Positions 2,703 through 12,589 of a stretch of 12,589 bases of DNA are shown in pieces (the stretch's first letter is position 1; each line of letters opens with the position of its first letter). The position numbers and the translations under genes are program-made. The notes below the pieces were generated by a model. It made no database searches, had not been told where the DNA came from, and saw only the letters and a list, made by a program, of their open reading frames with translations. This stretch comes from Neisseriaceae bacterium (GTDB lineage: Bacteria > Pseudomonadota > Gammaproteobacteria > Burkholderiales > UBA11063): contig CANISK010000022.1 of the NCBI GenBank assembly GCA_947470205.1, forward strand, positions 1 to 12,589, given 5' to 3'.

Positions 2703-4856
2703 TCAATACCCACCATTCCTCACCCCAATCCTCACAGGCTTCATCCTACTTGCCTTCCTATATAGAAACCCTTCGCCTGTACTCAAGTTCTTCAACTGTT
2801 CAGGATGCACATTAAATGCCTTTATCGATTTAGAACTCCCCATGCCTGTTGCACCTCCAACCGATACGTCAATCTGTGTTGTCACCTCAAATACATCCCT
2901 AGTGTTATACACCTTACTCATTATCTCGGCATCTTGTTCATTGTTAATCGCTAAACATAAATAAGTATTACAACAACTTTTTAATTCCTCAGCAACACGT
3001 TTTGTCTCTTCGGATTTTAGGCTAACCGATACTATAGACTGTGTACCAATGATTGCACACATACCTTTTGACCTCATGAGGCTTATCGTATCAGATAGAT
3101 TACTACTTGCATAACTTGCAAACTCATCAAATACACAATAGGAGTACTTCGGTGTGCTTAGTTCTGAGAAGCTAGAATTAATGTCATTAATAATTAGCTT
3201 AGCCATTTTCTCAGTATCGCTTTTGTATGAGGAGCTATCTAATAAGAATAACACCATCTCATTGTTTTCAATTGCACTACGTAGACTAATGACATTATCT
3301 TGGTTTTGTGTTTTAAATAACTGTCCATAGCTAGATTCTACAAATAGCCCCAACATGATGGCTACGTCTTTAACTAATGCTTTATCTATCTGCTCTAACT
3401 TATGAGCTAACTTATCATCGTTATACTTATGTGCTGCCTCTATAACGATATCTATATTAGATAGCATAGTATACAAAAAATCTAAATCAATTGTCTTATT
3501 CATCTTAAATAGTACTTGAGCTACTGAATTAATTAAGTCTTCCTCCATTAGTGCAAAATGTTGTTGTCCCTTACCCCTTACTTCTGCAAATAATGATAGT
3601 ATCCTGTTTTTCCATTCCGTAAATGTTCCTGATGCAAATGGATTATATGCAGATACATGATGCTGATATTTTGATGGAATTGCCTCAGGTCGTAGAGTAA
3701 ACACCCTAAACTTTCTGTTATAGTGCTGTGCAATTTTAGATAAACGCTCTACTAGGTCAGTTTGACCTTTGCCATCCAAAAAGATTAATGGATAGTTTTT
3801 GTTGGCACAATGTACCACCATATTTAAAATAGCCACTGTTTTACCTGCTCCTGTTGTGCCTATGATAAACATATGCTGATTAAGTTCTTTATCGCTCAAT
3901 CCTATTTGTTTGCCGTTATCTAAGTTAGTACCTATAATAAAATCACTCTTGTTGTATTTTTGATGAGATGGTCTATTGAGGTTCTGCTCTTTGATTTTAC
4001 TGTATGTATTTTTTGAGCAAGAAAGCTCAAATGTTAGCTTAATGATAATATAGGGCAATAACCAGATGCTAGCTGATTCTACAAATAAACTAATAGTGTT
4101 TTTAAGTTGTAACTTAATAAAGTCTATTACTCCAAGATGCAATAAATAAGTAATCATGATATTCGGTAGAACAAATATCATATTTGAATATGATGATATG
4201 GTTGTAGCTATTATAATGATACAGCATATAAGTAGCATAATGATTTTAGATTGTCTCTTTGAGTACAATAAACAACACTCAACGATCATAAGTGCAATTA
4301 AACCAAGATAGCTAATCCATAATAGACAACCACATAGTATTACAAACAATATCAAGTGTATGTTTAGATTAATATTAAATAACTCATCAGGATCTATTTG
4401 TATACCCATTAAGTCTCTATCAATGATATTAGTTCGCCTAAATTCCACATTAATTACATACAGTAACACCCCAACAGCAAAACTAAAAATAATGTGTTTG
4501 ATGTGTAATAATTTAGGTATGTTATATGCTATATAAGTTAGGTATGTATCTATGTGTGATATATCAGTATCTGGCTTATTGAGTACATAGTAGTTAGTAT
4601 CTAGCTTTATAAAAAAACTCAGTACAAATGACAGATAAAACACCACAGCTAAAAAATGAAATCTAGATAATCCCATTTGATATATAGCTCTTCTATAAAA
4701 CCAGAGGGTTTTATAGAAGATATAACCACCAATTGATGTTATGATACCAACTTGCCAATTATAGTAAATAAAACTTGCGCATAATATGATAGATAGAGAG
4801 TTATTCCAATAATAAATCGCATACTCAATCTTGTTTAAATCTTTTACTTCTTTCAT
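2703..4856 (-). CDS. VirD4/TraD-type conjugative coupling protein
   Basis: A 717-residue membrane ATPase. Walker A GTTGAGKT is at 333-340 within FIIGTTGAGKTVAIL, and Walker B YCVFDEFA is at 573-580 (D577/E578). GTQS (604-607) and the C-terminal TraG/TraD-like segment (STGEGFLYRK) follow. Coupling proteins recruit the relaxase-DNA complex and pump DNA into the type IV channel. The N-terminal about 280 residues hold roughly seven hydrophobic segments (near 20-48, 66-84, 120-137, 166-197 as two, 205-240 as one or two, and 262-278). Most VirD4 proteins have only two, so this domain is odd. The protein lacks the long acidic tail of F TraD. GAGG lies 9 bases before ATG 4856. The gene stands alone between a structured 162-bp gap and the parA control region, on the same strand as its neighbours. 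Confidence 0.9.
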   Translation of the reverse strand: MKEVKDLNKIEYAIYYWNNSLSIILCASFIYYNWQVGIITSIGGYIFYKTLWFYRRAIYQMGLSRFHFLAVVFYLSFVLSFFIKLDTNYYVLNKPDTDISHIDTYLTYIAYNIPKLLHIKHIIFSFAVGVLLYVINVEFRRTNIIDRDLMGIQIDPDELFNINLNIHLILFVILCGCLLWISYLGLIALMIVECCLLYSKRQSKIIMLLICCIIIIATTISSYSNMIFVLPNIMITYLLHLGVIDFIKLQLKNTISLFVESASIWLLPYIIIKLTFELSCSKNTYSKIKEQNLNRPSHQKYNKSDFIIGTNLDNGKQIGLSDKELNQHMFIIGTTGAGKTVAILNMVVHCANKNYPLIFLDGKGQTDLVERLSKIAQHYNRKFRVFTLRPEAIPSKYQHHVSAYNPFASGTFTEWKNRILSLFAEVRGKGQQHFALMEEDLINSVAQVLFKMNKTIDLDFLYTMLSNIDIVIEAAHKYNDDKLAHKLEQIDKALVKDVAIMLGLFVESSYGQLFKTQNQDNVISLRSAIENNEMVLFLLDSSSYKSDTEKMAKLIINDINSSFSELSTPKYSYCVFDEFASYASSNLSDTISLMRSKGMCAIIGTQSIVSVSLKSEETKRVAEELKSCCNTYLCLAINNEQDAEIMSKVYNTRDVFEVTTQIDVSVGGATGMGSSKSIKAFNVHPEQLKNLSTGEGFLYRKASRMKPVRIGVRNGGY

Positions 4857-5018: not shown

Positions 5019-5753
5019 TTAAAGACCAAGTCTTGCTCTTAGCTGTTGTTTCTCATTAAATTGGCTTGTTATTATGTTATTGTTAATCATTTCATTATGG
5101 GGTTTTTGGTTCATAAATTCTTTTGAATTTATGATGTCATCTTCATTGATTATTTTAAATTTAAATTTACTATCTAGGGTGTTATTATTTGTCATGACGG
5201 ATGCAATTTTATCGGTTGTATAATAGATAACTTCTTTATAATCACTAAACTTATATTGCCTCATGATTGTTGCAATTCTTGATGCATTTTTAAGACTAAT
5301 TTCAACCTCAATTGCGGTTGTATCATTTAAGACTAAGTCAGGGATTTTTATCCTTCTATCTTTGCTTAAATTAACCTGATATTTAAGTTCAAATTCAGTT
5401 ACAATGCTCTGCGGATTTTGTTTTAAATATTTAATGAGTAGTCTGGCTACCATATCATCATGTTTAGCATTTTGTAACACGAATTTAGGTTCATTTATTG
5501 CATCATTAAAATCAGCACCCAATTTAGAAAAGCACCAGTAGTTAGGCAGTCCTGCTATAAATCTTTTTTTGATGATATAGCCATGTTTTTGTAGTCTAAA
5601 TCCTATACCACGTATAATAGTATTTACTTTATTGTCTGCATAATCTAAACCTAAAAAATATGCAATATTATCCTGTCTTATCCATCCTAGTTTTTTGATT
5701 AATTCAAATATTTTTATATCTCTATCCGTTAGCTCCATACTTCCTCTTCTCAT
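5019..5753 (-). CDS. Winged-helix / PD-(D/E)XK-like protein, replication-relaxation-like (possible mobilisation accessory)
   Basis: A 244-residue protein. Residues about 6-90 look like a winged helix: LTDRDIKIFELIKKLGW, a recognition-helix-like stretch, then GYIIKKRF and a WCFSKLG wing. A nuclease-like core follows: KIPDLVL (about 136-142) and AIEVEISLKN (147-156) give the pattern PD...ExExxxK, and later strands YKEVIYYTT and KFKFKIINEDD fit an alpha/beta fold. This combination resembles the 'replication-relaxation' family, MobC-like proteins of mobile elements linked to relaxosome or replication functions. Whether it cuts DNA is unknown, and some family members may be inactive. It sits between the coupling-protein gene and the structured region 5754-6290, as expected of an origin-binding accessory. 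Either ATG 5753 (AAAGG 8 bases upstream) or ATG 5738 (AGAGGAA just upstream) could be the start. Confidence 0.55.
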   Translation of the reverse strand: MRRGSMELTDRDIKIFELIKKLGWIRQDNIAYFLGLDYADNKVNTIIRGIGFRLQKHGYIIKKRFIAGLPNYWCFSKLGADFNDAINEPKFVLQNAKHDDMVARLLIKYLKQNPQSIVTEFELKYQVNLSKDRRIKIPDLVLNDTTAIEVEISLKNASRIATIMRQYKFSDYKEVIYYTTDKIASVMTNNNTLDSKFKFKIINEDDIINSKEFMNQKPHNEMINNNIITSQFNEKQQLRARLGL

Positions 5754-5776
5754 CTCTACTACCTTTCTTTTTTTTA

Positions 5777-5804
5777 AATATAATTAATTATTATTTTGTT
5801 GTAA
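5777..5804 (-). promoter_or_regulatory. Candidate leftward promoter for the replication-relaxation-like gene
   Basis: On the minus strand, TTACAA (5804-5799) and TATATT (5782-5777) are separated by 16 bases, about 25 bp before ATG 5753. The match is moderate and AT-rich DNA gives such hits by chance. The position next to the giant inverted repeat is its main support. Confidence 0.35.
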
Positions 5805-5813
5805 TTTATGTTC

Positions 5814-5931
5814 GTGTTGAGTGTTTCAATCATCTCACTCACTGGCTCCAGACCCCTTCATCGTTAAAAACGAAGTTTAGAGGGAGGGGTCTGGAGCCAG
5901 TGAGTGAGTTTTGATGATTTACACTCAACAC
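5814..5931. repeat. Giant inverted repeat (24-bp perfect inner arms, 11-bp outer arms)
   Basis: The inner arms at 5834-5857 and 5885-5908 are perfect reverse complements over 24 bp, and are much richer in G+C than the surroundings. The outer arms GTGTTGAGTGT (5814-5824) and ACACTCAACAC (5921-5931) are also perfect. Between inner and outer arms, AATCATC (5828-5834) can pair with GATGATT (5913-5919). The 27-bp loop contains its own CGTT-AAA-AACG hairpin. The whole 118-bp element could extrude as a cruciform or fold on single-stranded DNA. The right arm is followed by TTTT, so a rightward terminator is conceivable, but no rightward gene precedes it. I see no target-site duplication or transposase. 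Confidence 0.9.
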
Positions 5932-5953
5932 ACACCATCGCAAAAACTATTTA

Positions 5954-6088
5954 TTATCAGTATGTTATCAGTGGTTAGCATTTTTAATGAAGTATCATGC
6001 CACCAACAACCCACCAACAGACTGTTGGGGCTTTGTTGGTGTCTTGTTAGGGCATTTGTTGGTGTCTTGTTGGTGTCTAAACTGATAA
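5954..6088. repeat. Iteron-like cluster: 11-bp TTGTTGGTGTC units with inverted copies
   Basis: TTGTTGGTGTC starts at 6033, 6056 and 6067, and a degenerate unit (TTGTTAGGGCA) starts at 6044, making a tandem array of 11-12 bp units. The 17-mer TTTGTTGGTGTCTTGTT is exact at 6032-6048 and 6055-6071. Inverted copies CACCAACAA (6001-6009) and CCACCAACAG (6011-6020) lie to the left. TTATCAGT occurs twice on the left (5954-5961, 5965-5972; 11 bp apart), and its reverse complement ACTGATAA lies on the right (6081-6088). The cluster is therefore roughly symmetric, with helical-turn spacing, as in arrays bound by replication initiators or transfer accessory proteins. Confidence 0.75.
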
Positions 6089-6277
6089 TTGATTTTGTAG
6101 TTTTTATTTTTTTCACTGATATTTTTCTTATAATTTTTGGGTTATTTTTTTATCATTTATTAGTGCTTTTTAGTGATATTTTATATATTTGTTATATTTT
6201 CTTTATTAGTTTATTTGTGCATTGTTTATGCTTCAATATCAATGATATTCATATAATATCAAAAATTTCTGGGGTTT

Positions 6278-6288
6278 GGGCATAGCCC
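6278..6288 (-). terminator. Short hairpin just downstream of the transglycosylase gene
   Basis: GGGC (6278-6281) and GCCC (6285-6288) surround an ATA loop, immediately past the stop codon of the leftward gene ending at 6291. Read leftward, a T-stretch follows only after about a dozen bases, so it is a weak terminator at best, perhaps one that protects the message end. Confidence 0.3.
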
Positions 6289-6290
6289 TC

Positions 6291-7409
6291 TTAAATTACT
6301 AGCATATTTGGTGCATTTCTTATATGCTTTGGGTTGGTTTGCATGTGTTGTTTATTGTTAGGTTTTTGATTTATTGTTTGGTTTTTTATAACTAAATGTT
6401 GATTAGTTTTTATGTCGTTTGTAGTATTATTTTGATTTAGATTTTGATTGACTTGTGATGATTTTTTATTTAAAATTTGCTTGTTTTTTGGTGTAATTTG
6501 TGTGTAGTCTTTATCTAAAATGTTATGATTTTTTAATGCAATTGTTGTGTTGTTTTTGATTAAATTTGTGTTATTTTTAGGTGTGGTTTGTATGAGATTT
6601 GTCTCTGATAATTGATTAGATTTTGTGATAATTTGTGGGGTGTTTTTATTGATTTTTTGTGATAAATTTATGTAGTTTTTTTCTTTATTTTTAAATAAAA
6701 TTTGATTCACTTCTTGTGTGTATTTTTGATTGGTATTTGATATCTCTTGATTGTTGTTTATTAATGAATTTGAGTTATGTTTTAATTTAGTATTTGGTAT
6801 ATTTTGGGGGTTATTTAGTGTGGTGTTTTGATAGTCTTTTGATATGATAGTTGGTGTGTTTTTATTATTATTTTGTACTGTATCTTGGTTATATTGCGAT
6901 AATGTATTGTTAGTTATTTGTGTGGTGGTTTGTTGTTGTTTGGTTGAGGTATTAAGTAGTAGAGCGGGGTATGTTTGTTTGATTCTGTTATAGATTTTTG
7001 TTGCATATCTTAAGTTAATATCATGCCCGTTATATCTTTGAATTGCAGTCCAGTTTAGTCCATAAAGTTTAATGTTATTTGCAAGAACCCATGCACCCAT
7101 ATAGATATTTTGGCATGGATTATAGAGCATTTGTTCATTGATATTTAGAGTAGATAGTTTAGGCAACCACGATGAGTTAATTTGCATTAATCCGATATCA
7201 AAAGTGCCATTATTATTTTTATTATATGCATTAGGATTGTAATGACTTTCAACATAAGCTATAGCCTTTAGTATCTCTTTTGGTACTTGATAATACCTCT
7301 GTGCAGTAATAAAACATGCATCATATTTGTCGTTATCAACAATAGTATCTGCATGTGATAAATGAGCTAGAAATAAGCTTATAATGATGATTAATTTATT
7401 GACTTTCAA
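6291..7409 (-). CDS. VirB1-like lytic transglycosylase with long Asn-rich tail
   Basis: From TTG 7409 the protein has 372 residues. A signal peptide (MKVNKLIIIISLFLAHLSHA, 1-20) is followed by an SLT domain (about 25-145): AYVESHYNPNA with catalytic Glu54, GLMQIN (73-78), MGAWVLANN and QRYNGHD, then YATKIYNRI. Such enzymes cleave peptidoglycan in the periplasm so the type IV channel can be built. From about residue 150 to the end runs a low-complexity tail of Asn, Lys, Thr, Gln and Ile, with no Gly, Cys or Trp and degenerate repeats around NTP-x-IITK. The frame is open up to 7580, but that extension overlaps the upstream gene, has no signal-peptide character and would bury the signal sequence 57 residues inside, so I place the start after 7462. 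No clear ribosome-binding site precedes TTG 7409; translational coupling to the upstream gene is possible. Confidence 0.82.
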   Translation of the reverse strand: MKVNKLIIIISLFLAHLSHADTIVDNDKYDACFITAQRYYQVPKEILKAIAYVESHYNPNAYNKNNNGTFDIGLMQINSSWLPKLSTLNINEQMLYNPCQNIYMGAWVLANNIKLYGLNWTAIQRYNGHDINLRYATKIYNRIKQTYPALLLNTSTKQQQTTTQITNNTLSQYNQDTVQNNNKNTPTIISKDYQNTTLNNPQNIPNTKLKHNSNSLINNNQEISNTNQKYTQEVNQILFKNKEKNYINLSQKINKNTPQIITKSNQLSETNLIQTTPKNNTNLIKNNTTIALKNHNILDKDYTQITPKNKQILNKKSSQVNQNLNQNNTTNDIKTNQHLVIKNQTINQKPNNKQHMQTNPKHIRNAPNMLVI

Positions 7410-7461
7410 TTTGGCATACTTTGATATCAAGGATTGATTTTTAATTAAAAGCAGTATGCTT

Positions 7462-7770
7462 TTATGTTTGATTTGGTATATTAATTGACGTGGATGTTCG
7501 GTTATTTTGCATATCAAGTGTAGTTGTCTGATTGATGGTATTGGCGTTGGTTTTATTATTGATTTTTTGAAGTTCAGCAATTAACTTATGAGCAAATTTA
7601 TTAAAATTTAACTTATTGGCTTTATTGTTTTTATTAAAAATGGATAATTCTCGCTCAAAATCATCAACTAAAGATTTGCTAACTGGAAGTTTTATTATAC
7701 CTAATAATTGAGGTTGTTCTATTGTAATTAGTGACACAGTTTCTTTCTCCATAAATGTTATTGTTTTCAT
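7462..7770 (-). CDS. Small hypothetical protein of the transfer region
   Basis: A 102-residue protein I do not recognise. From ATG 7770 it begins MKTITFMEKETVSLITIEQP, continues with LLGIIKLPVSKSLVDDFERELSIF (a short strand and an amphipathic helix), a Lys/Asn-rich middle and a Thr/Asn-rich disordered C terminus. No signal peptide, membrane segment or known motif is visible. It lies 52 bp upstream of the chosen transglycosylase start on the same strand and is the first gene downstream of the 23-bp iteron array, so it may be regulated by, or encode the ligand of, those sites. The frame extends upstream to ATG 7842 and TTG 7863, but the extra N-terminal sequence runs through the inverted iteron and looks non-coding. 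The start is uncertain. Confidence 0.5.
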   Translation of the reverse strand: MKTITFMEKETVSLITIEQPQLLGIIKLPVSKSLVDDFERELSIFNKNNKANKLNFNKFAHKLIAELQKINNKTNANTINQTTTLDMQNNRTSTSINIPNQT

Positions 7771-7810
7771 GAGGTTACCAAGTAAAATGGTGTGTAAATA
7801 TACACTAATG

Positions 7811-7833
7811 TGTAATAATACATAACATGGACA
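7811..7833 (-). repeat. Inverted copy of the 23-bp iteron
   Basis: Read on the minus strand this 23-mer begins TGTCCATGTTATG and ends in TATTATTACA, resembling the direct copy at 7926-7948 (TGTCCA, then TTA, then ATTATTACA). It is separated from the first direct copy by exactly 23 bp (7834-7856), so it sits on the same lattice. It overlaps the possible N-terminal extension of the 102-residue gene. Confidence 0.65.
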
Positions 7834-7856
7834 GTGATTCATATGTTGATAAAAAC

Positions 7857-7948
7857 TGTCCAAGTTAAATCACATTTGCTGTCCAAGTTAAATATTAATG
7901 ATTGTCCATCAAAAATATGAATGGGTGTCCAAATTACATTATTACACA
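7857..7948 (+). repeat. Array of four contiguous 23-bp iterons
   Basis: TGTCCA starts at 7857, 7880, 7903 and 7926, exactly 23 bp apart with no spacers. Copies 1 and 2 share TGTCCAAGTTAAAT; copies 3 and 4 keep TGTCCA and a degenerate A/T-rich remainder. Directly repeated units of about 20-23 bp (about two helical turns) are the classic form of plasmid replication iterons bound by Rep proteins, and also occur as multi-site operators. The array stands about 87 bp upstream of the ATG at 7770. No Rep gene is visible in the window, so origin and operator remain open. The units adjoin each other, so this is not a CRISPR array. Confidence 0.8.
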
Positions 7949-8054
7949 ATAAATCAATCTATCAATCGTTAATAAAGGGCTCATTGCCGCCCTCTTGCCA
8001 TACTTCGTGTGTCAATTCACCGCTAGAATTTGTACCAAAGTAATGTATGAGCTA

Positions 8055-8428: not shown

Positions 8429-9049
8429 TCATTGAAAATAGAATGCTTTTCCAATATAATCAGCCTTACTAATTATGTTGGCCATACCAATCACACCAAA
8501 ATATCTACTATCAAATGAATTATCACCATCACCCATCACAAAATATTCATCCTGAACCAATCTATGAGTATAACCAATTGGTAATGGATTTAACGCCACA
8601 CCTCTTATGGATTGATATGCTTTTGAATGCTTGAGTAAATGACCATTAATTAGCATTCCAAAACTATTAACACTCACTACATCACCAGAGACTGCAATAA
8701 TACGTTTTAGAAGTGTATTTGTATTTGTATGATAGCCTAATCTTTTTATTGTATGCATGTTAGTCTCTGGTAGTTTGATGGTATATAGACCACCTACCTT
8801 AATATCTTTTATCTCTATATCATGATATGGATTTACAACATACCAACCTATTGGCTCTGATGCTGTATTATTATAAACAACCCATCTAGATAGTGATAAC
8901 CATAAACATAATCCAATCAATAAACAACAAGATATAATAAAATGTAACCTATAATTACATTTGTTTGGTATGTTAGTTACTGGTGTATTGGCTACTGCTA
9001 TGTTATCTATGGGCATTTTACCTACTTGCATTTGAGGTGTTATCATCAT
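8429..9049 (-). CDS. traF: TraF-like conjugative signal peptidase (S26 family)
   Basis: A 206-residue membrane serine peptidase. One membrane segment (about 35-54) follows a 34-residue cytoplasmic leader. The S26 boxes are all present: SEPIGWY (64-70) with catalytic Ser64, LLKRIIAVSGD (113-123) with catalytic Lys115, and GDGDNSFDSRYFG (173-185). TraF of RP4-type systems matures and circularises the TrbC pilin at the outer face of the inner membrane; the SEPIGWY form fits TraF rather than housekeeping LepB. It follows virB4 by 8 bp in the same operon. ATG codons at 9049 and 9046 are both possible; neither has a strong ribosome-binding site, suggesting coupling to virB4 translation. No pilin gene is in the window, so the substrate is inferred. 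Confidence 0.88.
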   Translation of the reverse strand: MMITPQMQVGKMPIDNIAVANTPVTNIPNKCNYRLHFIISCCLLIGLCLWLSLSRWVVYNNTASEPIGWYVVNPYHDIEIKDIKVGGLYTIKLPETNMHTIKRLGYHTNTNTLLKRIIAVSGDVVSVNSFGMLINGHLLKHSKAYQSIRGVALNPLPIGYTHRLVQDEYFVMGDGDNSFDSRYFGVIGMANIISKADYIGKAFYFQ

Positions 9050-9057
9050 AAGTTTAT

Positions 9058-11517
9058 TTACAATTGCATCATATATTGAGGTAAATTACAGTATTCTAGC
9101 CATTTTTTAGCGAAACACTCAGGGTGATGCTGTTTTATCTCTTTTGCCTTCACTAAGTCTTCCATCTTAGAATTACAAAAAAATGCTTTACTTACAATGA
9201 AGTTATCCATATCTAAATTAAATAATTTGCAACCATCTGGGTTCATGAAGTAATACTGGCGTTTTACTTGAGCATGACTTAAGATATCTAGCTGTCTATT
9301 AGTTAATCCAAATTCTAAATATGCATCTCTTACTTGATTATCTTTATCTAATTTAACATTTGGGGTTAAAATTGTTGTTAGGCATTGTTGTAATAATGTA
9401 TCTTTGATGTTACTTTTAGCCACTTGCGTGACACTTAGAGTAGCAAGCACTATATTTACATTTAATTTACGCATTGTATCTAGCCATTTGGCTAATTCTT
9501 TACTAAACGTTGGGTTATTAAATACCATCCATGCCTCTTCTATGATGATGGTAGTTGGTCTACCATCTAACTGCAACATAATCTTATAAAATAGATACTT
9601 TAAAACTGGTATGATCGTAGTATCACCCTTATCCATAACCTCAGACATCTCAAACACATTAAATCTGTTTAGTGTTATTCTATCTATATGGGCACTAAAT
9701 ACTTTTGCTTTTAATGTATCTTCACCTTGATACATTTTTAATACTTCAGATACTTCCAAGTTGATACCACTTATATGCATATATAGGGCATGTACGGTTC
9801 TTAATTCAATTGGTAGCTGTTTTAATGAAGAGACCCCATCATGTATTGCATTGGTATGTTCTGATTTTATTGTGAGGTTATTTAACTCACAAATAAGACT
9901 TATCCATTCAACCGCAAAATCAAACCCATTTGTTGTATCTACATTAGCAAATGGTTGAAATATGGTATCATCACGACCTATATCGTAGTATTCACCATCT
10001 ATGCCGTATGTAAATGGCATCATTGAGTGCTTATAATCAAATACAAATACTTGTGAATTTTGATATCTCAATTGAGAGAATGCTAAAAACAACAGCAAGG
10101 TTGATTTACCGCTACCAGTTGAACCTAGCACTAAAGTATGACCTATATCTTGCCAATGTAGGCTACCTTTAAATATTTCATGATTGGGAGTATCCACATA
10201 GAATAGGGGAGGTGAATTCTCTGGATACATATTTGATGGATGAGTATTATATCCAGACCAACTGCTACTAATTGGCATAAATTCAACTAAGTTTTGGGTG
10301 GAGACTAAAAATCTACGTCTGTTTTTATATATCTCACCATCTAGGCTACCTAGATATGATTGCATAGCTCCCATAGTCTCTAATCTATTTTTAAACATAA
10401 GTTCATCAAATATATGTCTGACTTCTTTTACTCTATCTGATAATAAAGATTCATTATCGCTATATAGCACTACACAACAATTATATTTACCGTGATTGGT
10501 GCCATTAATAACACTATCTCTCTTAGCCTCCTCAGCTTCGTCAAATAAATCATAGGATGATCTATTGATATTAACTGACATACCACTCCTAGATGCAATT
10601 GATGCTGTTGGTGATAATAGATTTTGTTGGTGTAGGTCTGATAGGTGTTGAATGTTATTGCGAGATTCTATATTAGTTAAAAAGAAGAACCTTGTATGCC
10701 ACCTAAACTCAAAATTCAGACTATTTAATCTCTCTAAAATTAATGGTTGACTTTCTTCTGGGAAGCCTTGGTCAATAGATATCACTCTAACATACATATC
10801 ACCCACTTTAGGTTCAAATCCTGCTATAAAGTCTTCGGCTAGATAATGTTTTAATTCAGTGAATGCATTATTTGGTAATTGCAATTTAGACCATTTGCCA
10901 CTTATTAGATAGTGCAGATAGCTTAATGTCTCATTACTATCCATTGGTGTTAAACGTATTGCTCTATCTATTAATCTGGTTGCTTGTTCTAGCCTTTGTA
11001 TAAAATGCTCATAGTAAAAGCTATACGCATCATGTTTATTGTTTGTTTTATTGCTTTGACTAAATTTAGAGCCAAGTTTATTAAGTGCTTTATCTTGTGG
11101 TAAATATGTAAATGTAATTGCGGTTTTGGTTATAAATAAATCTTGTGAATTAGTGAAATAATATCGTCTATCTTTATCTATTAAGTCTAGTAATTCATGA
11201 TTGAAATGGTTGTCTTTTTTGTCAATATAGTCACTTATTTTAAGACGGATGCTATTTACATGAATGACCCACCCTGTTTCAAATCCTGCAAATATTAAAT
11301 TAAGATAACGCGTGATACCAAGCTTTTGATACATCTCGCTACTTTCTAAATCATGCCCATTAAAGTAGAATGACTTTTGATAAGAACCATCTAAGTTATA
11401 TATTACCCCGTCCGCAATAAAATGACTATATAAAAGCATATCTGAGAATCCTAATTGATAGGTATCTTGATTCTTGTGGGGGTTGAATTCATCAATGTTT
11501 CGCATATATATTTTCAA
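9058..11517 (-). CDS. VirB4/TrbE-type conjugation ATPase
   Basis: An 819-residue ATPase of normal family length. The N terminus (LLYSHFIADGVIYNLDGSYQKSF region, then HDLES) matches the TrbE layout (a 'VL-KDGSFQ...F-G-DL-S'-like stretch). CagE/VirB4 N-domain sequence runs to about 420. Walker A GSTGSGKST (465-473) follows, then VFVFDYKHS, Walker B TIIIEEAW (656-663), and a C-terminal MRKLNVNIVLATLSVTQV motif typical of VirB4. It energises pilus assembly and DNA passage at the inner membrane. The start is TTG 11517, four bases after the stop codon of the Fic gene, or ATG 11505; neither has a clear Shine-Dalgarno, so coupling to the Fic gene is likely. The usual neighbours VirB3, VirB5 and VirB6 are absent, and a Fic gene sits directly upstream, an odd operon order. 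Confidence 0.93.
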   Translation of the reverse strand: MKIYMRNIDEFNPHKNQDTYQLGFSDMLLYSHFIADGVIYNLDGSYQKSFYFNGHDLESSEMYQKLGITRYLNLIFAGFETGWVIHVNSIRLKISDYIDKKDNHFNHELLDLIDKDRRYYFTNSQDLFITKTAITFTYLPQDKALNKLGSKFSQSNKTNNKHDAYSFYYEHFIQRLEQATRLIDRAIRLTPMDSNETLSYLHYLISGKWSKLQLPNNAFTELKHYLAEDFIAGFEPKVGDMYVRVISIDQGFPEESQPLILERLNSLNFEFRWHTRFFFLTNIESRNNIQHLSDLHQQNLLSPTASIASRSGMSVNINRSSYDLFDEAEEAKRDSVINGTNHGKYNCCVVLYSDNESLLSDRVKEVRHIFDELMFKNRLETMGAMQSYLGSLDGEIYKNRRRFLVSTQNLVEFMPISSSWSGYNTHPSNMYPENSPPLFYVDTPNHEIFKGSLHWQDIGHTLVLGSTGSGKSTLLLFLAFSQLRYQNSQVFVFDYKHSMMPFTYGIDGEYYDIGRDDTIFQPFANVDTTNGFDFAVEWISLICELNNLTIKSEHTNAIHDGVSSLKQLPIELRTVHALYMHISGINLEVSEVLKMYQGEDTLKAKVFSAHIDRITLNRFNVFEMSEVMDKGDTTIIPVLKYLFYKIMLQLDGRPTTIIIEEAWMVFNNPTFSKELAKWLDTMRKLNVNIVLATLSVTQVAKSNIKDTLLQQCLTTILTPNVKLDKDNQVRDAYLEFGLTNRQLDILSHAQVKRQYYFMNPDGCKLFNLDMDNFIVSKAFFCNSKMEDLVKAKEIKQHHPECFAKKWLEYCNLPQYMMQL

Positions 11518-11521
11518 TCAT

Positions 11522-12139
11522 TTAATTGTTTTTTCCAATAGCAAATTTAAGTAATGCAGTATAGTCTTTTTTGTCCGCTAATTTTAATGCATTAATATAA
11601 TTAGTACGATTTTTACTTGCAATTGCAATATTATCATTAGAACCCCATTGAAATTGTTGACCTCCTAATGCCAATTTTAATTCATCACTAAAAATACGAG
11701 AGAATCTGCCATTGCCATTTGGAAATGGATGTATCCAAACAAGTTGATGATGCAATCTAATACAAATTTCATCAATAGGAAATATAGAATTTTCAATCCA
11801 ATACGTAACATTATCTAAAGTATTTTTAATACTAGGTTGTATCTGTTCTGCTGCAGTAAAACCAATGTTAACAGCATATCGTCTTAACTGACCAGCCCAT
11901 TTCCATGTTTTATCAAACATTTTCTTATGCAATTCAAAAATAAATCTCATAGTTAATATATCTTGATATTTATGATTCTTTTTTCGTACCCAAAGTAATG
12001 CATTAATAATATTTGCCTTTTCAAATTCATCCAAATCTTTTCTGGTAAATATATGCTTTGGTATCAAACCATCCATATCATCTGGAGTTAATTCTGTAGC
12101 ACCATATGGTAAATGTTCATTAATTAATAATTGAGTCAT
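11522..12139 (-). CDS. Mobile mystery protein B (Fic-domain protein)
   Basis: A 205-residue Fic/Doc-fold protein. The N terminus LPYGATELTPDDMDGLIPKHI followed by TRKDLDEFEKANI is characteristic of mobile mystery protein B. The Fic core includes RFIFELHKKMFDKTWKWAGQLR (65-86) and the catalytic loop HPFPNGNGRFSR (137-148), with His137, anion-hole GNG and Arg145. The Mg2+-coordinating acidic position of the Fic consensus is Asn141 here. Fic enzymes usually transfer AMP to target proteins; the substrate of this family is unknown to me. Its ATG follows the stop codon of mobile mystery protein A with no gap (TAAATG), and virB4 follows after 4 bases. I do not see a clear (S/T)xxxE(G/N) inhibitory helix in it. 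Toxin of a toxin-antitoxin-like pair is a reasonable inference, unproved. Confidence 0.88.
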   Translation of the reverse strand: MTQLLINEHLPYGATELTPDDMDGLIPKHIFTRKDLDEFEKANIINALLWVRKKNHKYQDILTMRFIFELHKKMFDKTWKWAGQLRRYAVNIGFTAAEQIQPSIKNTLDNVTYWIENSIFPIDEICIRLHHQLVWIHPFPNGNGRFSRIFSDELKLALGGQQFQWGSNDNIAIASKNRTNYINALKLADKKDYTALLKFAIGKNN

Positions 12140-12589
12140 TTATTTTTTATTCCAAAAATTACGAGCCCAAGATTGTAAATAAGATTGTTTTAATTTTTCT
12201 ATATTCTCCTCTTGATATTGTTTCGATGTATTTTGTGCCTCTAAACTCATATGTTTTTCTGCGTATGAATCTATACTTCTTGCATTTTTGTATGCTTGTT
12301 TCTCTCTTAATTTTGACAGTGAATCATCTTTGGGTACTAAAAAATATACCAATTCACACTCTAAACCATCAGCAACCTTTCTTAAGGTGCTAAGCGTAAT
12401 ACTGTCATTAATTTCTCCTTTTTCTATCAGTGAAATTCTAGACTGTGCCAAACCAACTCTTTTACCTAAGGCACAAGCACTCATGTCTAAGGCTTTACGA
12501 ATAAGGTTAATCCAACCTCGTTTGGGTTTAATAAAATCTTTGTGGTTTTTAAATTTAGCTATCATTTCATCTATTTGCTTCAATTGTAA
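12140..12589 (-). CDS. Mobile mystery protein A (HTH regulator), 5' end probably outside the window
   Basis: About 147 residues are visible from TTG 12583. KPKRGWINLIRKALDMSACALGKRVG leads into a Cro/C1-type helix-turn-helix (about 34-56, AQSRISLIEKGE in the recognition part), then SITLSTLRKVADGLECELVYFLVP (61-84) and a charged helical tail. This pattern is the mobile mystery protein A family. The frame stays open to the last base, and family members, as I recall them, start several residues before the QIDEMI region, so the true start is probably just beyond 12589; TTG 12583 and ATG 12565 are alternatives. It abuts the Fic gene on the same strand and most likely represses their common promoter, and may neutralise or regulate the Fic protein. 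Confidence 0.85.
   Translation of the reverse strand, partial: LQLKQIDEMIAKFKNHKDFIKPKRGWINLIRKALDMSACALGKRVGLAQSRISLIEKGEINDSITLSTLRKVADGLECELVYFLVPKDDSLSKLREKQAYKNARSIDSYAEKHMSLEAQNTSKQYQEENIEKLKQSYLQSWARNFWNKK

Follow-up and report, generated by a model that had tools for sequence, protein, structure and literature searches.

A nested palindrome beside a divergent MOBC-type relaxase candidate as a probable origin of transfer in a Neisseriaceae bacterium

A long palindrome, a set of repeated boxes and a T-rich tract share the non-coding region at 5754-6290 of a Neisseriaceae contig, and the locus raises the question of whether this region is an origin and, if so, whether it serves transfer or replication. 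The window analyzed here is the whole contig (C22 of assembly G000; 12,589 bp), part of a 1.43-Mb assembly of 197 contigs that is 88% complete. We conclude with high confidence that the region, with its core at about 5814-6080, is the origin of transfer (oriT) of a conjugative element encoding a divergent MOBC-type relaxase at 5019-5753, in which the palindrome would bear a G|GTC nick site and the box array would serve as a docking site.

The palindrome and its genetic setting

The main inverted repeat of the window (5834-5908), which is proposed as the nic-bearing core of the oriT, has perfect 24-bp arms at 5834-5857 and 5885-5908 that enclose a 27-nt loop. It lies within an outer stem of perfect 11-bp arms, GTGTTGAGTGT at 5814-5824 and ACACTCAACAC at 5921-5931, which brings the total span to 118 bp (5814-5931). 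The two stems are nearly coaxial, with centers 1.5 bp apart; neither they nor the box array are assigned to a strand. The best palindrome score is 24, a value reached by none of 200 dinucleotide shuffles of 5754-6290 (maximum, 13; mean, 8.3), and the 118-bp repeat with 24-bp perfect arms in the preliminary description is thereby confirmed. Folded as single-stranded DNA, 5814-5931 has an energy of -44 kcal/mol (z = -13.3). A DNA search of the assembly with the region, covering both strands of the palindrome, returned only the region itself; 72,556 plasmid records held no DNA relative at E 1e-5, and the 23 genomes of the genus yielded, besides the region itself, only short DNA matches, the best being 47 bp (E 1.8e-4).

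All nameable genes of the window are on the minus strand. From high to low coordinates, they are the mobile mystery protein pair A/B, a VirB4/TrbE transfer ATPase (9058-11517), a TraF-like conjugative signal peptidase (8429-9049), a frame at 7462-7863, a VirB1-like lytic transglycosylase (6291-7580) whose stop codon borders the non-coding region, the non-coding region itself, the gene for a 244-aa protein, a 717-aa type IV coupling protein (TrwB_AAD_bind/TraG-D_C; 2703-4856), a ParA partition ATPase of the plasmid-type backbone (1913-2566), and a ribbon-helix-helix protein. The ATPase, peptidase, transglycosylase, coupling protein and ParA assignments rest on family matches; the frame at 7462-7863 and a plus-strand frame at 272-1462 have no family match. 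The occurrence of the coupling protein, VirB1, TraF and VirB4 in one run bears out the transfer-region setting that had been claimed. The mystery pair (11522-12583), a helix-turn-helix protein and a Fic protein, stands beside the transfer genes, and two overlapping AT-rich palindromes at 2572-2672, located between the start of the ParA gene and the stop of the coupling-protein gene, are a candidate partition site or operator.

A coupling-protein gene directly adjoins the relaxase candidate in loci L034, L035, L038-L042, L069, L082-L084 and L086 as well. None does so in L036, L037, L043 and L045, the L043 and L045 stretches being short; the L037 contig carries a coupling protein together with VirB4, VirB8, TrbI, SLT, CagX, TrbL and T2SSE. 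Behind a Rep3 gene on the same contig (15730-16788) stand five TACTGTAAATAA(A/G)GC iterons with 22-bp spacing (16843-16948), the probable oriV of that related element. Searches of the 88%-complete assembly with the PF03432 and PF03389 relaxase families gave no match. A TrwC-type relaxase-helicase of 931 aa is encoded on another contig of the assembly, C25 (L071, 216-3011), beside a large restriction/helicase-like gene (named by eye).

A remote MOBC-type relaxase candidate

The 244-aa protein (5019-5753, minus strand) matched no relaxase in Pfam, NCBIfam or PDB sequences, and PHROGs returned nothing useful. Membership by family model fails: PF13814 gave no match to the protein at E values up to 10, and the 16 families that members of the 14-row alignment A2 match do not include it. 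Among 5.8 billion proteins, the sequence found 19 matches. The window protein and 17 of these (P0017 and P0019 [partial] left out) make up alignment A1, and the 14 rows of A2 are the window protein, seven of the 19 matches and six homologs from the genus; a third alignment, A3, holds the CloDF13-type protein of L048 and 11 of 35 CloDF13-type matches.

Thirteen columns are invariant in A2, including H98, E122, P138, D139, A147, E149, E151 and K155. P138, D139, E149, E151 and K155 are identical in 14/14 rows and have equivalents in 12/12 CloDF13-type proteins, and the elements H, P-D and A-x-E-x-E-x-x-x-K follow each other in the same order in A2 and in the CloDF13-type MobC proteins of A3. To judge from this pattern, the PD..E-x-E..K residues are probably catalytic and of the PD-(D/E)xK type, which points to a nuclease. 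Profile-profile comparison (hhalign) of A2 with A3 gave a probability of 98.3% (E 1.3e-14) over 172 columns, spanning residues 9-194 and thus the winged helix and the nuclease domain; against 20 column-permuted versions of A3 the value never exceeded 1.2%, and against reversed A3 it was 0.1%. With A1 alone, the value against A3 was 93.5%, and those against a single CloDF13-type protein and a single pAM373 protein were 15.7% and 10.8%.

Single comparisons link the protein to the same class by two routes. It is 29% identical (E 6e-29) to a protein of the Sporomusa plasmid pSSP59 (L069), itself 29% identical (E 1e-14) to a Paenibacillus "replication-relaxation family protein" on a MOBC-typed plasmid; it is also 24% identical (E 3e-9) to the protein of L035, which passes the PF13814 cutoff (28.5 versus 25.3 bits). 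MOBC relaxases are described as related to PD-(D/E)xK nucleases (PMC12857230). Because of the profile match, the sequence chains and this kinship, we regard the 244-aa protein as a divergent MOBC-type relaxase candidate, formal PF13814 membership failing, and the "replication-relaxation-like" neighbor gene of the preliminary description is upheld by remote homology. A protein search of the genome contigs with the 244-aa sequence gave no match, and a profile scan with A1 then gave L034 and L035; in 398 genomes from the phylum, only its own genome was matched at E 1e-5, and the viral contigs held no relatives. The pSSP59 protein had 22 matching plasmid records, and five others were examined.

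Palindrome structure and a common nick core

Upstream sequence was computed per strand because the genome loci came in contig orientation, and the gene starts of some diverged homologs were set by eye. Read in gene orientation, the palindrome lies at -155 to -81 in the window, -132 to -59 in L034, -173 to -116 in L036 (of the homologs in other genomes of the genus, the closest), -222 to -165 in L037, -116 to -43 in L038 (at a contig end) and -326 to -280 in L035, which places it 43 to 326 bp upstream of the gene in these six loci. In pSSP59, the gene is preceded at about 0.6 kb by an inner palindrome (5313-5387) that sits within an outer one (5274-5407).

The relative L034, 56% identical, differs from the window at 6 of 24 arm positions. 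Both palindromes are perfect, so all six changes are paired on the opposite arm. Six stretches folded as DNA (window, L034, L036, L037, L038 and L069) beat all 200 of their own shuffles, with z values of -8.0 to -13.3, and nested outer stems recur in L036, L037, L069, pAM373 and the Paenibacillus loci L083 and L084. The palindrome is thus conserved as a structure, its pairing being kept while its sequence has diverged. Short stretches are shared: GACCCCTCCCTCT where the arm meets the loop in the window, L034 and pSSP59, and CAGACCCCTCCCTCT in the palindromes of the window and pSSP59. No palindrome scoring at least 13 was found upstream of the gene in L040, L041, L042, L043, L045 and L046 (6 of 26 loci), all diverged homologs of the same genus, nor one scoring at least 15 in the 5,973 bp of G004:C21 (L044). 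Plasmid DNA resembling the L037 palindrome came to one match, at chance level. In L036 (8030-8175) and L037 (17552-17680), a small additional hairpin between the outer and inner stems, on their 5' side, would form a three-way junction. The record of L034 is labeled an uncultured Bacteroidetes bin, and mis-binning is possible. A different palindrome, GGATTCCCGC..GCGGGAAT, occurs on two contigs of this genome (L039, 6942-7042; L071, 9517-9593) and perhaps represents a chromosomal repeat family.

A nick core can be proposed by analogy. The nic site of ICEKp1, of MOB type C1, is given as GGTTG|GTCGCG (PMC7755788, Table A3). In pMET1 and HPI-ECOR31, nic sits inside an inverted repeat (PMC2262945) and is therefore present in two mirror copies. 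The window shares this two-copy property, with GGTC in both arms. The predicted core is the GGTC of the gene-proximal arm (5851-5854, minus strand), where G|GTC would be cut between 5854 and 5853; its mirror image in the other arm (5888-5891, plus strand) would be cut between 5888 and 5889. The nic site of CloDF13 is GGGTG/GTCGGG.

The GGTC tetranucleotide stands out in the loci surveyed. We took the sequence preceding the gene in 26 MOBC-type or candidate loci, for up to 2.7 kb, or less where the stretch ended (120 bp in L038, 758 bp in L048 and 1058 bp in L042). These loci, which are no random sample, include 17 of the 22 genus matches of A2 (G004:C21, G022:C53, G002:C7, G008:C201 and G007:C86 left out) and exclude L084, which is nearly identical to L083 in the relevant arms. 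A palindrome scoring at least 13 was present in 20 of the 26, the cutoff and the 2.7-kb reach having been set after palindrome scores and distances were known. GACC/GGTC occurs in an arm of 14 of these 20 (3.9 expected; standard deviation, 1.7), a count reached by none of 2000 arm shuffles, and in 11 of 17 loci once three near-duplicates were dropped (3.3 expected). It is the top 4-mer class, followed by CCAA/TTGG in 12 loci (6.0 expected). These figures supersede an earlier count of 13 hand-picked arms, in which GACC/GGTC appeared in 10 (1.4 expected). The palindromes of L036, L039, L048, L072, L085 and L086 (6 of 20) lack it; in L048, a GACC-bearing palindrome exists that went uncounted because its score is only 11.

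A second, clearly CloDF13-like MOBC group occurs in the genus: L073 gave 99.8% against A3 and is 30% identical to CloDF13-type MobC. The arms of L073, L074, L075 and L077 carry GACCAACC, which is the ICEKp1 core GGTTGGTC in reverse complement, and that of L076 carries GACCCAACC. The palindromes in question (L073, 1102-1187; L074, 2180-2265; L075, 1527-1610; L077, 2428-2513) contain GAGACCAACC, whose reverse complement GGTTGGTCTC matches GGTTG|GTC, and lie about 2.5 to 2.7 kb upstream of the gene. Two other search keys were discarded, short motifs alone being unspecific. The loop motif CCTCTNNAACNTCGT, a pattern that the window falls outside by being one base shorter, was found in 2 of 23 genomes, one match lying in an unrelated gene, and a backward control gave 10 matches; GACCCCTCCCTCTNAAC occurred on 4 viral contigs, never in a palindrome, and these are chance matches.

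The box array, competing explanations and known systems

The box CACCAACA (reverse complement, TGTTGGTG) has 7 copies in the window, against 0.37 expected, and none of 200 shuffles reached 7. Five of the copies cluster, in both orientations, at 6001-6075, the proposed binding site of the relaxase or an accessory protein. The array consists of two 19-bp half-units (6001-6019 and 6057-6075) that are 89% complementary and separated by a 37-nt spacer. These boxes recur in L034 (6318-6392), where 19-bp half-units again flank a 37-nt spacer; L036 repeats the layout in another sequence with a 34-nt spacer (7902-7977). Array and palindrome are 92 bp apart in the window, 98 bp in L034 and 94 bp in L036; L037 shows no such array beside its palindrome, and L038 ends at the contig edge. 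A terminator-like hairpin of 6 pairs with a 3-nt loop and a T-rich tail lies inside the window array (6014-6028, plus strand; 1 found, 0.2 expected).

The remaining components of the proposed origin fared less well. TTATCAGT has three exact copies, at 5954 and 5965 on the plus strand and 6081 on the minus strand, all within 135 bp (0.86 expected); this part of the claimed box set is weak because at least three copies also appear in 11 of 200 shuffles of the window, and L034 has none. The T-rich tract (about 6097-6290) does exist; its strong AT skew, however, extends into the gene at 6291-7580, and the tract has no counterpart in L034, where 32 bp separate the box array from the end of the VirB1-like frame. 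The preliminary description is retained for the CACCAACA boxes in both orientations and for the existence of the tract; judging by the shuffles and this one close relative, the TTATCAGT boxes and the tract are probably incidental and not part of the oriT.

We hypothesize that the relaxase, with its winged helix and PD-(D/E)xK-like domain, or a helper protein would dock on the CACCAACA array about 92 bp from the palindrome, which would be extruded or read as a hairpin. A single strand would then be nicked at G|GTC in the palindrome arm, and the neighboring coupling protein would hand it to the TrbE/VirB4-type channel.

A vegetative replication origin (oriV), with the array as iterons for a plasmid Rep protein and the T-rich tract as unwinding element, is an unlikely alternative reading of the same parts. 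The boxes are iteron-like, the flank is AT rich, a ParA gene is nearby, and both pSSP59 and the related contig L037 carry rep-type genes. Family searches, however, recognized no rep gene in the window (the frames at 272-1462 and 7462-7863 being without family match), the spacing of array and palindrome is maintained in the window, L034 and L036, and L034 lacks the tract. Moreover, replication and transfer origins look separate in L037, because its Rep3 gene and iterons are about 630 bp from the palindrome. Of the two functions named in the preliminary description, transfer is well supported in silico and replication is not. We give still less credence to the palindrome as a transcription terminator or RNA leader of the relaxase operon with the boxes as regulator operators. 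Its position 81 to 155 bp upstream of the start codon, the repeats on both sides, which could be operators, and the short terminator-like match in the array would suit such a role, but the gene strand has no T-run after the palindrome, TTTT occurring on the other strand alone (by eye), and none of 17 Rfam matches, mostly miRNA models that fit long hairpins, reached its gathering score. Nor does this explanation account for the outer stems and the nick core that MOBC-type elements from several phyla have in common. The silence of the terminator scan on the palindrome is no test, since the scan allows loops of 3 to 8 only; promoter-like matches numbered 2, against 3.0 expected.

The 931-aa TrwC-type gene in the same genome, together with the lack of a relaxase family match for the 244-aa protein, could mean that the latter is an accessory DNA-binding protein or repressor and that a TrwC-type (MOBF) relaxase from C25 nicks at this or another oriT. 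That, too, seems very improbable: the invariant PD..E-x-E..K residues and the MOBC homology point to a nuclease, no link between C25 and C22 was found, the other C25 frames look unrelated (by eye), and many elements pair such a gene with one for a coupling protein, with L036, L037, L043 and L045 as exceptions to direct pairing. An oriT beside another relaxase of the element, which the preliminary description had named as counterevidence, was not found within the 12.6-kb contig, the TrwC-type gene being on a different one.

The preliminary description had regarded the region as a type that could not be matched to a known oriT. This fails because anatomy and nick core fit the MOBC class, whose oriT is a known kind; it is the divergent relaxase candidate beside the region that the Pfam and NCBIfam models tried miss. 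The CloDF13-type plasmid of Citrobacter (MOBC1; L048) resembles the window in its 243-aa Replic_Relax protein with the same PD..E-x-E..K pattern, the coupling protein alongside, and upstream nested inverted repeats with GACCACCC and GGGTGGTC in the arms; TTTTGCGGGTGGTC also lies in a palindrome arm of this region. It differs in that the protein is only remotely alike, the order is oriT-mobB-mobC rather than oriT-relaxase-coupling protein, the GACC palindrome is shorter, with a 47-nt loop, and the plasmid is a small mobilizable one of ColRNAI replicon type. The enterococcal plasmid pAM373, typed MOBC, has a palindrome 0.6 to 0.74 kb upstream of a Replic_Relax gene, with perfect 25-bp arms that include GGTCAGGA, a 27-nt loop and a further stem nested around it; we read this palindrome as the putative pAM373 oriT. 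For oriT2 of pAD1, TraX is described as bound to five direct repeats 70 to 120 bp from nic (PMC12857230), and the arrays of window type, with their putative binding role, lie 92 to 98 bp from the palindrome in three loci. Sequence, phylum and secretion system differ in pAD1 and pAM373, and the window array is of mixed orientation. With ICEKp1, HPI-ECOR31 and pMET1, compared by published description only, the window shares the G|GTC core and a placement within an inverted repeat that would hold nic; they have GGTTGGTCGCG where the window has GGGGTCTGG, and another relaxase branch.

More tentatively, and with somewhat less than even confidence, these elements may form a deep MOBC-type branch that the models tried overlook and that spans at least two phyla; its oriT would be recognized mainly by shape (a nested long palindrome with freely changing paired arms, a short G|GTC core and array docking at a near-fixed distance of about 95 bp) and nicked in nuclease fashion without a lasting covalent link. 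For MOBC relaxases, no covalent intermediate has been seen, and strand recruitment, transfer and rejoining are described as open (PMC12857230). In the literature searched, the primary CloDF13 and pAD1 relaxation papers aside, we found no description of this branch or of its oriT sequence. MOBC relaxases are poorly understood, and a branch missed by Pfam and NCBIfam with a recognizable oriT offers a comparative set for nic and binding sites. Sporomusa pSSP59 combines the 29%-identical protein, a coupling-protein gene directly downstream and the nested palindrome sharing CAGACCCCTCCCTCT; it differs in its Bacillota host and in its array, which consists of palindromic units and separates the palindrome from the gene. 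PLSDB gives its MOB-suite type as non-mobilizable, and our results suggest that elements so typed may be transmissible. Its five palindromic repeat units of about 40 to 43 bp, at 5476-5744 between the palindrome and the relaxase candidate, are a possible binding array.
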